From positions 1-41,192 of the forward strand of contig CACZWD010000018.1 of assembly GCA_902784805.1 (NCBI GenBank): 41,192 nucleotides of DNA, written 5' to 3'. This stretch comes from an uncultured Ruminococcus sp. GTDB lineage: Bacteria > Bacillota > Clostridia > RUG12999. Of this stretch, positions 4,577-23,867 are shown piece by piece. The notes below the pieces were generated by a model. That model ran no database searches. It was not told where the DNA came from and saw nothing but the letters and a program-made list of their open reading frames with translations. Positions within the stretch are counted from its first letter, which is position 1, and each line of letters starts with the position of its first letter. Made by a program: the position numbers and the translations under genes.

Positions 4577-4608
4577 TATTGATACACGACTTTTTAGGAT
4601 TTGATTAT

Positions 4609-6117
4609 ATGAAAAAAAATTTCAGTGTTTTTGTCGATTCGGTCGGCAATATAAATTATGACGATATGACGCTTTCGGCTTCGCTTAAAAATAACGGCGG
4701 GCTTATAGCTTCTCTTTTTGAAAATGACGCCATGCTTCGCAAAAGAGAATGTAAAAACATTTTTAACAAAAAAATTCACTGCCTGCTTTTCTTTATGGAC
4801 GGAATGGCAAAAAGCGAGCTTGTCGATGAAAGCATCGCAAAGCCCGTTATTGAGCTGCCGATTTCAAATTTTGAGGGCGATGTCATTGATTTTTTGGCGG
4901 AAAACGTACTTTATTCGGGTGAAATAAAAAAAACCGCCGATGTAAAAGAGCTTGCGGGAGCGCTGATTTACGGCGATACTCTTGTTTTTGCGGAGGGCTC
5001 CGAAAAGGCGCTGATTGTAAACTCAAAGGGCTGGCGGACAAGGAGCATTGAACAGCCCGAAAACGAGAAAACTCTCCGGGGACCGAAAGAAGGCTTTACC
5101 GAATCACTGCTTATGAATACAGGGCTTTTAAGGCGAAAGCTGCGGACACCCGACCTTAAATTTGAAACGGTGACATTAGGCTCACGGACAAACACCTGCG
5201 TATGCTTTTGCTACCTTAACAGTCTTGTAAACCGCGATGTGCTGCGCACATTAAAAAACCGTATAAATAAAATCAGCATTGATGGCATACTCGATACAAA
5301 CTATATAGATGAGCTCATCCGTGACAATCAGTGGACGCCGTTTAAAACGGCGGGCGTTACCGAGCGGCCCGATGTGGCTGCGGCAAGGCTGCTTGAAGGG
5401 AGAATTGCCGTTATTGCGGACGGCTCACCTTCGGTTATGACGGTTCCTTATCTCTTTGTTGAAAGTCTGCAAAGCGGAGACGATTACTATATCAACTATT
5501 ATTTTTCGTCGGTAGGAAGGCTGCTGCGCTTTATAAGCCTGTTTATTACCGTAATAACACCCGCTTTTTATATCGCTCTTGTGGCGTTTCACAAAGAGAT
5601 GATACCGACCAATCTTGCTCTGAGCATATCCGAAGCCCGTGAGGGTGTGCCGTTTCCGATAACGGTTGAATGTATTTTAATGCTGCTTGTCTTTGAAATC
5701 CTGCGCGAATCGGGCGTCAGAATGCCCTCGAATGTCGGCGCGGCGCTCAGTACCGTCGGCGCGATTGTTATAGGTCAGGCGGCGGTTGACGCGAAATTCA
5801 TAAGCGCTCCCATGGTGATTATCGTATCTGTAACAGGCATTACGGGAATAATGGTTTCAAAGCTTAAAGGCGTTGTTATTGTCTATCGCTTGGCGCTTGT
5901 CCTTCTTGCCTCAACTCTCGGAATGTACGGGCTTATTTTCGGAGTTATGATAATGGTTGCCCATGCCGAAAGCCTTACAAGCTTCGGCGTAAGATATACT
6001 TCGTTTATGTCAAGCGGGCGTCTTCAGGAAATTAAGGATATTTACATCCGTTTTCCGTGGCGGTTTATGAAAACAAGACCTTTTAATATAGCAAAAAATA
6101 TTGTTCGCAAGGGATAA
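4609..6117 (+). CDS. GerA-family germinant receptor A subunit
   Basis: Spore inner-membrane germination receptor subunit of the GerAA/GerKA/SpoVAF family, 502 residues from the ATG at 4609. The N-terminal soluble half has the family features LFFMDGMAKSEL, GDTLVFAEG and the linker GPKEGFTESLLMNTGLLRRKL. The C-terminal half begins with DGSPSVMTVPYLFVESLQS and then has several membrane helices starting at LLRFISLFITVITPAFYIAL, with the conserved LRESGVRMPSNVGAALSTVGAIVIGQAAV. An in-frame TTG at 4579 with GGGGA 9 bases upstream is possible, but ATG 4609 has AGGA at the same distance. It is the first gene of an A-C-D-B operon, which argues for a germinant receptor rather than SpoVAF. The germinant cannot be read from the sequence. 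Confidence 0.93.
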   Translation: MKKNFSVFVDSVGNINYDDMTLSASLKNNGGLIASLFENDAMLRKRECKNIFNKKIHCLLFFMDGMAKSELVDESIAKPVIELPISNFEGDVIDFLAENVLYSGEIKKTADVKELAGALIYGDTLVFAEGSEKALIVNSKGWRTRSIEQPENEKTLRGPKEGFTESLLMNTGLLRRKLRTPDLKFETVTLGSRTNTCVCFCYLNSLVNRDVLRTLKNRINKISIDGILDTNYIDELIRDNQWTPFKTAGVTERPDVAAARLLEGRIAVIADGSPSVMTVPYLFVESLQSGDDYYINYYFSSVGRLLRFISLFITVITPAFYIALVAFHKEMIPTNLALSISEAREGVPFPITVECILMLLVFEILRESGVRMPSNVGAALSTVGAIVIGQAAVDAKFISAPMVIIVSVTGITGIMVSKLKGVVIVYRLALVLLASTLGMYGLIFGVMIMVAHAESLTSFGVRYTSFMSSGRLQEIKDIYIRFPWRFMKTRPFNIAKNIVRKG

Positions 6118-6123
6118 AAAAAT

Positions 6124-7242
6124 ATGAAAGTATATAAAACCGTTTTGCCGCTTTTGTTATGCTGTACGCTTCTTTGCGGCTGCGGAAACTATCTGGAAAT
6201 AGAAGACACCTTTCTTGTAAGCGGAATTGCCGTTGACAAGGGAGAAAAGGATAATTTTTCCGTTACCGTTGAAATTGCGGGCACAGAGAGCGGCGAAGAC
6301 GCTCCGTCACGCAAGCAGCTCATACTTTCGGCGGAAGGCAAAAGCCTTTACGCTGCTCTCGGAAATATATCCGCGGCAGCGTCGAGAAAGCTTTTTTTGA
6401 GTCAGACAGCGGTTGTTATAATCGGAGAGGAAGCCGCGAAGGACGGGCTGCTTCAGATAATTGACCTTGCCATGCGCGATACGGAGCTTCGCATAACAAA
6501 CAGTGTGGTTGTGGCAAAGGACTGCAAAGCGAAAGAACTTCTTTCCGCGCCTTCGGCGGGTGAAACAATAAAAGCGTATGAAATAAAAAATGTTATCAAA
6601 ACATCGGCAAAAAATTTTTCCGTTACGCCGGACGTTACCGTTTACGAGCTTATAAACGCTATAGGTAACAGAGGAATTGCCGCGACGCTTCCCGCTTTCA
6701 GCATAGAAAAAAGCGAAAAAATGCAGTCTCTCGCGATTTGCGGCACAGCGGTTTTTAAAGATGACAAGCTTAAAACCTTTTTAAGTACAAGCGAGTCAAA
6801 GCTTATGACAATGCTTATGGGAAAAACGGAAGAAACCACGCTGGCAGAAAAAACGGGCGATGACATCATAAACCTCAAAGTATATAAATGCGATACTGAC
6901 GTAAAACCCGGATTTAAAGGAGAAAACCCGGTTATAAATATTTCCCTAAAGCTTGACGCGGGTATTGATGAGCTTACGGGCAAGGACCATGTTTTATCCG
7001 CGGGCGAGCACGAAAAAATCAGGCAACGGCTTGAAGAAAAGCTGAAAAAAGATATAGAAAATTTTGTCGGAAAGCTTGCCTTTGAAACAGGTGAAGATAT
7101 CCTTGGCTTCGGCAGCAGGATTTATAAGAAATATCCCGATAAATGGCTGAAATTTAAGCACAAAGGATATTTAAAGGATATAACCTGCCGGGTGAATGTT
7201 AAAATAAAGTTTCGCAGCACCGGTTTTGTAAATAAGGCATGA
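6124..7242 (+). CDS. GerC-family germinant receptor lipoprotein (C subunit)
   Basis: Lipoprotein of the Ger(x)C family, 372 residues, anchored on the outer face of the spore inner membrane in known systems. The signal sequence MKVYKTVLPLLLCCTLLCGC ends in a lipobox with Cys20 as lipidation site. The mature part follows the GerC pattern: ISGIAVDKG-like start (LVSGIAVDKGEKDNFSVTVEIAG), an AASRKLFLSQTAVVIIGEEAA segment split here only for reading, and a C-terminal helix-rich domain ending near KFKHKGYLKDITCRVNVKIK. It starts six bases after the A subunit stop. Its neighbours on both sides are other receptor subunits, so assignment is firm. Confidence 0.92.
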   Translation: MKVYKTVLPLLLCCTLLCGCGNYLEIEDTFLVSGIAVDKGEKDNFSVTVEIAGTESGEDAPSRKQLILSAEGKSLYAALGNISAAASRKLFLSQTAVVIIGEEAAKDGLLQIIDLAMRDTELRITNSVVVAKDCKAKELLSAPSAGETIKAYEIKNVIKTSAKNFSVTPDVTVYELINAIGNRGIAATLPAFSIEKSEKMQSLAICGTAVFKDDKLKTFLSTSESKLMTMLMGKTEETTLAEKTGDDIINLKVYKCDTDVKPGFKGENPVINISLKLDAGIDELTGKDHVLSAGEHEKIRQRLEEKLKKDIENFVGKLAFETGEDILGFGSRIYKKYPDKWLKFKHKGYLKDITCRVNVKIKFRSTGFVNKA

Positions 7243-7279
7243 AACCAAAAATCAAACTATCGGAGAGGAATGGGTTGCA

Positions 7280-7492
7280 GTGAGTGAGACAATACTTTTT
7301 GTGCTGTTTGTAACAGCCTGCGTTATGTGCGATATTATAAACCGCAACGCAAAAGAGAACGCGGCTGTGGTTACCGCGTACTGCCTTTTGACAATATGCG
7401 CTCTTGCGGTTGTAATATCTCTCGGCTTAGGTGTTGATGTACCAAATCCAAACACGGTTTTTGAAACGGCTTACAAAATGATTGTAAAATAA
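7280..7492 (+). CDS. Small two-helix membrane protein, D-type germinant receptor subunit candidate
   Basis: A 70-residue protein starting at GTG 7280, with GGAGAGGAA about 10 bases upstream. It has two hydrophobic stretches, ILFVLFVTACVMCDII and VVTAYCLLTICALAVVISLGL, separated by a short polar loop NRNAKENA. Small two-helix D proteins are encoded in or beside several Bacillus ger operons (for example gerKD and gerUD) and modulate germination. Size, topology and position between the C and B genes fit that class; sequence-level homology was not tested. It ends 12 bases before the B gene. Confidence 0.72.
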   Translation: MSETILFVLFVTACVMCDIINRNAKENAAVVTAYCLLTICALAVVISLGLGVDVPNPNTVFETAYKMIVK

Positions 7493-7504
7493 AGGAGAAC
7501 AAAC

Positions 7505-8596
7505 ATGGAAAAAGTATCAAACAGACAGCTCACCGGCATAATTGTAATGATATTGGTCAGCGGTATAATGATGTCGGGCGGAGCAAGCCGTTCCATGCAG
7601 GATTCGTGGATTGCATCAGCTTTGGCGGCAATACTTGCCGTACCGTTTTTTCTTATGTACGCGAGACTTGCCGACCTTTTTCCCGGAAAGGGACTGTTTG
7701 AAATCGCTTATGAAGTGTTCGGCCGTTTTTTCGGAGGAATCATCGTATTTTTAATAAGCTTTTACGCTTTTCATCTCGGCGGAATGGCAATGAAAAATTT
7801 TTCGGAGTTTAATATGGACGTTTCAATGCCCGAAACACCGCAGCTTGTAACGCTTATAATGTTTGGCGCGGCAACCTTATATATAATAAAAAAAGGAATA
7901 GAGGTTCTCGGAAGATTTACCGATTTTTTTCTTCCGATAATGATTTTTTTAATACTTCTTATGAATGTGCTGTCTGTGGGGAAAATGAATTTTTCAAATG
8001 TTTTGCCGGTTTTGAAAAGCAAGCCGGAGGATTTTTTTTCAGATGTTTTTTCGGCGTTTGCTTTTCCCGTAAGCGAGGTATCTCTTGCAGCGTGCCTTAT
8101 GGGCTTTAAAAAGAACAAAACAAAAACCCGCAAAATTTTTTTGTACGGGCTTCTTGTAGGCGGAGCGCTTCTTGTTGCGGAAACGCTGCGCAGCATAACC
8201 GTACTCGGAACGCATACGATAGCGCTTACCTATTATCCTTCTTATGTAGCAACGGGCGTTATAAACATTATGGATTTTTTTACGCGTATCGAAGTTATTG
8301 TTTCGGCGGCGTTTTTGTTTGCGCAGACGGTTAAGGTGTGTGTATGCGTATATGTTTTCAGCAGCGGAACAGGCAGCATTTTAAAAAGCACCGATTACAG
8401 AACGCTTGCCGTCCCCACGGTTTTAGGCATGATAGCGCTTGCGTCTGTGGTTTTTAAAAATACGCCGGACACCTATAAGTTTTTGCAGATTTATAAATTT
8501 TTCGCGCCGTTTTTTCAGATTGCGCTTCCCGCGGTAATCTTTGCGGGCGCGCAGTTTTATTTAAAACGTGAGCGAAGCCTGACGGCGCCAATTTGA
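7505..8596 (+). CDS. GerB-family germinant receptor permease subunit
   Basis: Polytopic membrane protein of the GerAB / spore permease family (APC superfamily), 363 residues with about ten hydrophobic segments. In known receptors this subunit contributes the germinant binding site. It starts at ATG 7505 with AAAGGAG 6-8 bases upstream. Recognisable family features are the N-terminal SNRQLTGIIVMILVSGIMM, LFEIAYEVFGRFFGG, the helix-5 region DFFLPIMIFLILLM, VLPVLKSKPEDF and a mid-protein AFAFPVSEVSLAACLMGF. The last codons, RSLTAPI and the TGA stop, are supplied by the terminal repeat of the element at 8576-8850, so the original C terminus may have been different. Confidence 0.92.
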   Translation: MEKVSNRQLTGIIVMILVSGIMMSGGASRSMQDSWIASALAAILAVPFFLMYARLADLFPGKGLFEIAYEVFGRFFGGIIVFLISFYAFHLGGMAMKNFSEFNMDVSMPETPQLVTLIMFGAATLYIIKKGIEVLGRFTDFFLPIMIFLILLMNVLSVGKMNFSNVLPVLKSKPEDFFSDVFSAFAFPVSEVSLAACLMGFKKNKTKTRKIFLYGLLVGGALLVAETLRSITVLGTHTIALTYYPSYVATGVINIMDFFTRIEVIVSAAFLFAQTVKVCVCVYVFSSGTGSILKSTDYRTLAVPTVLGMIALASVVFKNTPDTYKFLQIYKFFAPFFQIALPAVIFAGAQFYLKRERSLTAPI

Positions 8597-8850
8597 ACTA
8601 CGGTTTTTTTCGGCAAATTTATGCTGATACTGCGTCAAATACCTTGCAAATACGTCAGTATTCCCTGCGGCATTTTCCTTGTCTCGACATAAATTTGCAC
8701 GAAATAAACTCCGTAGGACTTTAAACAATGAGATTTCAGTCGATTTTTGCCGCAGAGGGCGAAGATGGGCTGGCGCCCATCAAGAACGATAAGGTAAAAA
8801 GCGGCGAAATACCGACGTTTAAAGCGTGTTCAAATTAGCGCCGTCAGGCT
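8576..8850. repeat. 275-bp MITE-like element with 23-bp terminal inverted repeats
   Basis: Bases 8576-8598 and 8828-8850 are inverted copies of each other with one mismatch (core CCTGACGGCG...AATTTGAAC). Inside lie a long imperfect hairpin (arms 8598-8623 and 8688-8716) and a compact perfect stem-loop (8764-8770 with 8775-8781, loop TGGC). Bases 8731-8850 recur in reverse orientation at 23669-23787: 53 bases at one end and 26 near the other are identical, the middle is diverged. There is no transposase gene, and no clear target duplication. It fills the space between the germination operon and the next gene and could act as an mRNA 3' hairpin. A 36-codon ORF (8728-8838, plus strand) runs through the shared part. 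After 8850, only a TATAAT at 8884-8889 is seen before the next gene. Confidence 0.75.
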
Positions 8851-23527: not shown

Positions 23528-23657
23528 TATACGAAACCTGACGTCGGAAAATTTTATATTAGATGGGTGCGGAGGATGCAGATGGGCTTACGCCTATCAA
23601 AGACGACAAATCCCATATAATAAAAATTTAACAAGTCAGGGCGCATAGAGTTCGTAT
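23528..23657. repeat. Diverged copy of the dispersed repeat, plus orientation
   Basis: An imperfect inverted repeat: TATACGAAACCTGAC at the left is mirrored by GTCAGGG...TTCGTAT at the right, and AAATTTTATATTAGATGGG by CCCATATAATAAAAATTT. The centre (about 23570-23610) resembles 8750-8790: a stem-loop GATGGGC-TTAC-GCCTATC (23581-23598) and, in one frame, AEDADGLTPIKDDK against AEGEDGLAPIKNDK. The stretch before it (23452-23527) has only a small inverted repeat (ATCCTGA at 23468 with TCAGGAT at 23489). Confidence 0.55.
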
Positions 23658-23668
23658 CTCTTTTGCTT

Positions 23669-23787
23669 AGTCTGATGGCGCTAATTTGAACACGCTTTAA
23701 ACGTCGTTATTTCGCCGCTTTGAGCCTTTAGGTCTTGATGGGCGCCAGCCCATCTTCGCCCTCTGCGGCAAAAATCGACTGAAATCT
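23669..23787. repeat. Second copy of the dispersed repeat, inverted relative to 8731-8850
   Basis: Read on the minus strand this matches 8731-8850: the last 53 bases are identical, another 26-base block from CTAATTTGAAC onward is identical, and the segment between is diverged by substitutions and a one-base deletion. It carries the same terminal sequence (AGTCTGATGGCGCTAATTTGAAC at 23669, split by two mismatches from its partner) and the same stem-loop. The one-base deletion breaks the 36-codon reading frame found in the first copy. Past 23787 the similarity stops abruptly. Confidence 0.78.
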
Positions 23788-23792
23788 CTTTT

Positions 23793-23858
23793 CATTCCTT
23801 GCTCCGCTGATAAGAGATGAGTTAATTACTATTAGAGCCGAAGCGGAGCGGCGGAATG
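23793..23858 (+). promoter_or_regulatory. Inverted repeat overlapping the ribosome binding site of the PdaB-like gene
   Basis: CATTCCTTGCTCCGCT (23793-23808) pairs imperfectly with AGCGGAGCGGCGGAATG (23842-23858). The right arm ends in the GGAATGGAG that holds the ribosome binding site of the ATG at 23868. Folding could limit translation; it could also be a fragment of the neighbouring repeat. Confidence 0.5.
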
Positions 23859-23867
23859 GAGATTTTT

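Follow-up and report, generated by a model that had tools for sequence, protein, structure and literature searches.

The window analyzed here, a 41,192-nucleotide stretch of DNA from an uncultured Ruminococcus sp., carries at positions 8576 to 8850 a repeat for which an earlier note had considered mobility, an RNA, or a protein-level function, and which raises the question of what kind of element it is. The window DNA is from a spore-former, as indicated by a run of gerA, gerAC, and gerAB at 4579 to 8596. The repeat is very probably a nonautonomous fold-back MITE belonging to a large clan in Clostridia, a reading built up below from the element itself, its relatives, its ends, and its predicted folds.

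The complete element and the half-elements in the window

The 275-bp unit with 23-bp TIRs proposed in the earlier note was confirmed as a complete, Y-shaped (two-arm) element (8576 to 8850, plus strand). Its left TIR, AGCCTGACGGCGCCAATTTGAAC (8576 to 8598, plus strand), is common to the copies in the same genome and agrees with the reverse-complemented right end in 22 of 23 bases; the right TIR (8828 to 8850, minus strand) reads AGCCTGACGGCGCTAATTTGAAC on the minus strand and is followed by TA, which flanks this particular copy on the right side only. A gerAB-like gene (spore-germination permease, 7505 to 8596) has the element at its 3' end and takes from it the last six codons (SLTAPI) and the stop, the TGA inside the left TIR being the end of the frame. 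Noncoding, intergenic, and flanked by TA, it is in all likelihood a MITE.

Two long hairpins fill the space between the TIRs. Arm 1 (8599 to 8716, plus strand) is a long imperfect hairpin in the minus-strand fold whose core is on the plus strand; it is matched by our arm model R1 at 8610 to 8703 with 93.9 bits, and its core, CCTTG-CAAATAC-GTCA-GTATTCC-CTGCGG (8642 to 8670, plus strand), recurs in other TIR families. Arm 2 (8717 to 8827, minus strand), also seen in the minus-strand fold, has its core on the minus strand, opposite to arm 1, a layout shared by 19 nonredundant Y elements; this core reads CTTG-ATGGGC-GCCA-GCCCAT-CTTCGCCCT-CTGCGG on the minus strand (8750 to 8784). The small stem-loop described in the earlier note, GATGGGC/GCCCATC at 8764 to 8781, is real and lies within the arm 2 core. 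The predicted folding energy of the whole 275-bp element, in which the TIRs pair over their full length, is -119.2 kcal/mol for the minus strand (z -9.95 relative to dinucleotide shuffles) and -109.9 kcal/mol for the plus strand (z -8.0).

The same note had counted three related units in the window; all are homologous, but they are in fact one complete element and two half-elements from two TIR families. The inverted close copy of the right part (23669 to 23791, minus strand) matches element positions 152 to 275 with 92% identity over 124 bp; it belongs to the family of the complete element, of which it has the TIR and arm 2 but not arm 1. The diverged unit at 23528 to 23657 aligns locally with 8731 to 8850 at a best score of 42, where shuffled sequences reached at most 32 (z 5.4), and is closer still to the right half of another element in the same genome, C47:12036 (score 66 versus a shuffled maximum of 41, z 10.3), the TIR of which is TTAGACAAAAGG..CTTGAAC. 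Because of this better match, we assign it to a second TIR family as a half-element reaching about 23668 (23528 to 23668, plus strand), made up of arm 2 and the right TIR GAGTTCGTATCTCTTTTGCT. Its arm GATGGGC/GCCTATC (23581 to 23598) does pair with one G-T pair, as had been noted, and that pair sits on the favored strand of its arm. Both half-elements abut at one common TA near 23668. An imperfect inverted repeat, CATTCCTTGCTCCGC / GCGGAGCGGCGGAATG, is also present at window positions 23792 to 23860, immediately upstream of a gene for a polysaccharide deacetylase.

Copies, architecture, and extent of the clan

Searches for further copies returned many with common ends, both in the same genome and in others, so the repeat is not confined to the copies in the window. 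The genome itself (1.67 Mb in 66 contigs, 84% complete) contains five full-length or nearly full copies of the window family (84 to 100% identity) and one half copy, and all ten TIR matches in it fall within these copies except one. This stray sequence (C10:48097-48120) is TIR-like with 2 mismatches, has no second TIR nearby, and apparently lies inside a helix-turn-helix-type gene. The arm 1 model gave eight matches in the genome, copies of other TIR types included. A single-hairpin element with ends GGTCACTTCTAAAAATTC was seen near position 15607 of contig C13; both architectures described below thus occur in this genome. Among 60 relatives compared, 83%-identical copies were found in a genome from another family of the same class (G017) and related copies in G005, G007, and G035, and full copies were not found in three same-genus genomes. 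Another comparison, of occupied with empty sites, gave a syntenic counterpart in a genome of the same genus (G003), which has both flanking genes at the window site without the element, at only 73% DNA identity, so that the junction is not base-exact. Such a patchy distribution, in which copies from genomes of different families remain highly identical, points to horizontal movement or to elements being gained and lost often. Taken together, shared ends, target duplications or TA flanks, the syntenic unoccupied site, and compensatory changes in the hairpins bear out the MITE-like reading.

Across many TIR types, paired TIRs are spaced in two sizes, about 158 to 182 bp and about 262 to 284 bp. 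The short class forms one long imperfect hairpin, and the long class, which includes the window copy, has a TIR stem from which two arms of about 103 to 118 bp branch; all 19 nonredundant Y elements fold in this way, with the same core type in both arms in opposite orientation. The TIRs are wholly different between families, whereas the hairpin core is kept: CTTG, stem, GTCA or GCCA loop, stem, CTGCG. CTTG facing CTGCG makes an inner internal loop, and beneath it is a second loop made of the same letters on swapped strands (GCGTC facing CCTTG). In our pattern-collected set, the search pattern itself dictates the core letters, whose constancy is therefore no evidence, and only alignment A1 samples the core freely; in freely sampled members, both strands of the tip stem vary (AATAC/GTATT, AATCC/GGATT, TAATAA/TTATTA), and the loop letters are largely constant.

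In several Y families (L031, L202, L287, and L297), the inner TIR parts read GGGTTCGACTCCC or GGGTTCGGCTCCC and are tRNA T-arm-like, with the outer 7 to 9 bases varying; the TIRs of other Y families do not form a T-arm-like stem, and attC-like features were seen in some TIRs. Elements can also be nested, one lying within another at TTAA (L152). Two genomes, G060 and G061, commonly carry, alongside full copies, copies of 48 to 71 bp with little beyond the two TIRs (L164 to L193), which are probably hairpin-tip deletions and may themselves still move. Their existence means that the core, here deleted as a whole, is not required for a copy to persist.

Model R1 had matches in 79 of the 391 genomes of the class compared with 2 of about 285 other genomes in the phylum; at most 10 to 14 candidates were scored per genome in this search, making its copy counts lower bounds. 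The exact core pattern occurs in at least 120 stretches in public genomes; among the matches listed, record titles name Clostridia, Clostridiales, Oscillospiraceae, or Ruminococcus, plus one untyped bacterium, and many of these matches are at contig ends, indicating that the elements break metagenome assemblies. One TIR type alone had 648 matches in G060 (2.7 Mb) and 196 in G061, with 0 for a reversed-pattern control, and 86 TIR matches were counted in G035. The window repeat belongs, as a single copy among many, to a large and apparently undescribed clan present in about one-fifth of the sampled Clostridia genomes. A 59.6-bit arm 1 match was seen on an unverified human-feces phage contig (MT837146.1:2454-2548), a possible carrier. 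Carriage by viruses or plasmids was set aside as a general explanation, as only this contig and one Vescimonas replicon pointed to it and viral contigs gave no match to the core pattern.

Ends, target sites, and candidate mobilizers

If the clan is mobile, its ends should reveal what moves it, and here the two architectures differ. The single-arm AGGAACTG family, whose members range from 48 to 160 bp through nested loss of the hairpin tip, is flanked by TTA/TTA or TAA/TAA (TWA) in 19 of the 21 copies with both flanks readable; other single-arm families have 4-bp flanks, e.g., TTAA, TTGA, or TTTA. Single-hairpin families are thus characterized by target duplications of 3 to 4 bp. Most Y copies have TA at both ends, and in one case (L276) two tandem Y copies have one TA in common.

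Complete insertion sequences with ends like those of single-arm MITEs in the same genome were found twice: a 1,220-bp IS in RUG080 (L302), with ends matching a same-genome MITE at 19 of 20 and 16 of 20 positions, and a 1,235-bp IS in Ruminococcaceae bacterium P7 (L306), with ends matching a MITE at 14 of 16 and 12 of 16. In NK3B98 (L301), an IS end of matching type adjoins a transposase. Such ISs are the probable mobilizers of single-arm families. The transposases of L302 and L306 belong to the IS5 family (293 and 284 bits to NF033581, cut-off 140), and we consider it quite likely that IS5-type transposases move the single-hairpin families in general. Acting in trans, these enzymes would read nothing but the outer 16 to 20 bp. 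Two IS5-type ISs in G060 and G061 (L194 and L195) were rejected as mobilizers, their ends being different.

The window copy itself is not an IS5-derived MITE, given its TA flanks, its other ends, and the lack of PF01609 in its genome; searches of that 84% complete genome found neither PF01609 (DDE_Tnp_1) nor PF13358 (DDE_3). Its TA target would fit an IS630-type (RUP-like) derivation, but PF13358 had no match in this genome or in 13 of 15 other genomes tested, and IS630 is too rare to be the general mobilizer. Y1 transposases were dismissed on the same ground, as Y1_Tnp was present in no more than 8 of the 16 carrier genomes searched for it. In G035, there was no IS-length TIR pair among the matches listed, and no mobilizer of the Y/TA class was found. 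The Y class would thus call for a different, TA-targeting transposase, and it seems reasonably likely that such an enzyme, other than those found here, moves it.

Folding strand and competing explanations

Checking the hairpins for covariation, as the earlier note had suggested, revealed compensatory changes, with strong covariation in the helix next to the core. On an ungapped alignment of the core region from the pattern-collected set, 89.7% of cells in this helix are paired versus 75.1 ± 1.4% after shuffling, with 52 double changes versus 19.8 and a covariation score of 0.349 versus 0.104 (slid controls, at most 0.129); a simpler first count of pairs was concordant (208 of 288 versus a shuffled maximum of 174). 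In single-arm elements read on the core strand, A.C mismatches outnumber G.T mismatches 204 to 84 (33 elements versus 2, counts that come from related elements and hence are not independent), and 36 of 37 elements fold better on the strand opposite the core, by a mean of 19.8 kcal/mol. It follows from the A.C excess and the opposite-strand folding that the maintained folding strand is CGCAGG-AATAC-TGAC-GTATT-TCAAGG. In Y elements, the strand on which an arm is more stable goes with the core of that arm (16 of 19 and 19 of 19) and not with one whole-element strand, the arm mismatch counts are weaker (64 versus 47, P = 0.13; 68 versus 43, P = 0.02), and the TIRs have no strand bias. As judged from wobble pairs, each arm is thus predicted to fold preferentially from one strand, a bias that fits RNA and single-stranded DNA alike and cannot separate them.

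The elements are mainly intergenic: 115 of 129 cores are outside ORFs, although ORFs make up 83% of that DNA. Neither convergent, divergent, nor tandem gene neighborhoods are clearly favored, and no clear regulatory placement relative to the flanking genes is seen. Among the functions considered in the earlier note, mobility is upheld by target duplications and dispersed copies, an RNA is possible alongside single-stranded DNA folding, and a protein is not indicated. The last would require a conserved peptide to be encoded by a 36-codon frame (MRFQSIFAAEGEDGLAPIK...) located in the right half, making the element a short coding one; the frame is open in four of five full copies in the genome, but differences by codon position (42, 48, and 31) show no third-position excess, and stops or frameshifts interrupt it in L004, L013, and L014, so that protein coding was rejected as extremely improbable.

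An RNA gene or cis-regulatory RNA, spread by duplication and acting on the host as a terminator, attenuator, or RNase III site with mobility only incidental, would account for the strand-specific folding of nearly all single-arm elements and for covariation on the opposite strand. Such an origin does not predict target duplications, exact ends, or matching insertion sequences; moreover, the arms of Y elements favor opposite strands, so no single transcript suits both and a whole-element transcript was rejected, the flanking-gene arrangement equals background with orientations in tandem contexts of 25 versus 13, and no covariance model in Rfam matched the element. We therefore regard it as improbable. 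Somewhat less remote, though still unlikely, is the idea that these are unrelated IS-derived MITEs whose common core is a functionless product of chance fold-back or palindrome gene conversion. Palindromes convert easily, single-arm ends match IS5-family ISs, and tip-deleted copies are common, yet identical internal loops and the two sizes accompany unrelated TIRs in many genomes, and the helices around the core stay paired through change, with mismatches biased to one strand in 33 elements against 2.

The recurrence of two fixed sizes and one core under unrelated TIRs, together with arms that fold best opposite the core, argues that the interior of the fold-back MITE is not free filler. We lean slightly toward the view that the core has its own function and is retained as the ends change, the simplest candidate for that function, proposed tentatively, being recognition of the hairpin on one strand. 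Each arm might then act as a strand-specific hairpin, in single-stranded DNA or RNA, that aids spread or limits the element's cost, and arms may have joined with ends from several types of transposon. Possibly, but speculatively, selection acts on this hairpin module as its actual unit, the module being paired singly or as an inverted pair with unrelated transposase ends (IS5-like with 3- to 4-bp targets, or TA-targeting) and spreading through recognition as single-stranded DNA or RNA by a common host or transposon factor.

Bacterial MITEs are normally viewed as ends with disposable filler. Here, filler is conserved and ends change, in about one-fifth of the sampled Clostridia and at hundreds of copies in some rumen genomes, which opens the testable question of whether a hairpin core helps a parasite to switch mobilizers; the elements are also potential markers for gut Clostridia. 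IS5-family ISs resemble the single-hairpin families in outer ends and target size, whereas the MITE interior is not IS sequence and the Y class of the window copy differs both in its ends and in targeting TA. REP/REPIN elements with RAYT (Y1) transposases share paired inverted hairpins and a single-strand logic, and REPINs are not known to have long TIRs or target duplications. The clan was compared with RUP, BOX, and CIR by their descriptions. RUP of Streptococcus pneumoniae, a MITE that targets TA and is presumably mobilized by IS630-Spn1, is likewise short and noncoding, with TIRs paired in the fold and a partner transposase in trans (PMC2229807; PMC3049150), but it is limited to about one species group and has no core common to TIR types, and the genome containing the window lacks IS630-type DDE_3. 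BOX of streptococci is modular and tightly folded, with TIRs, target duplications, nested insertions, and high copy number (PMC3049150), but repeats an inner module between fixed ends where the clan keeps the inner module and varies the ends. CIR (Caulobacter/Brucella) has two long hairpin arms with a conserved motif at the loop (PMC2229807) and is set apart by description, with another bacterial class and the motif GANTC. A 2024 review of prokaryotic MITEs reports that MITE transcripts form stable stem-loops and names no Clostridia or Firmicutes (PMC10969869), and we found no description of the clan in Rfam or in open-access literature on MITEs in Clostridia, Ruminococcus, or Faecalibacterium, subscription papers and ISfinder being outside the scope of this search. 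Folded bacterial MITEs are thus known as a general kind; this clan differs in its conserved inside and variable ends, in having two fixed architectures, and in the strand preference of each arm.
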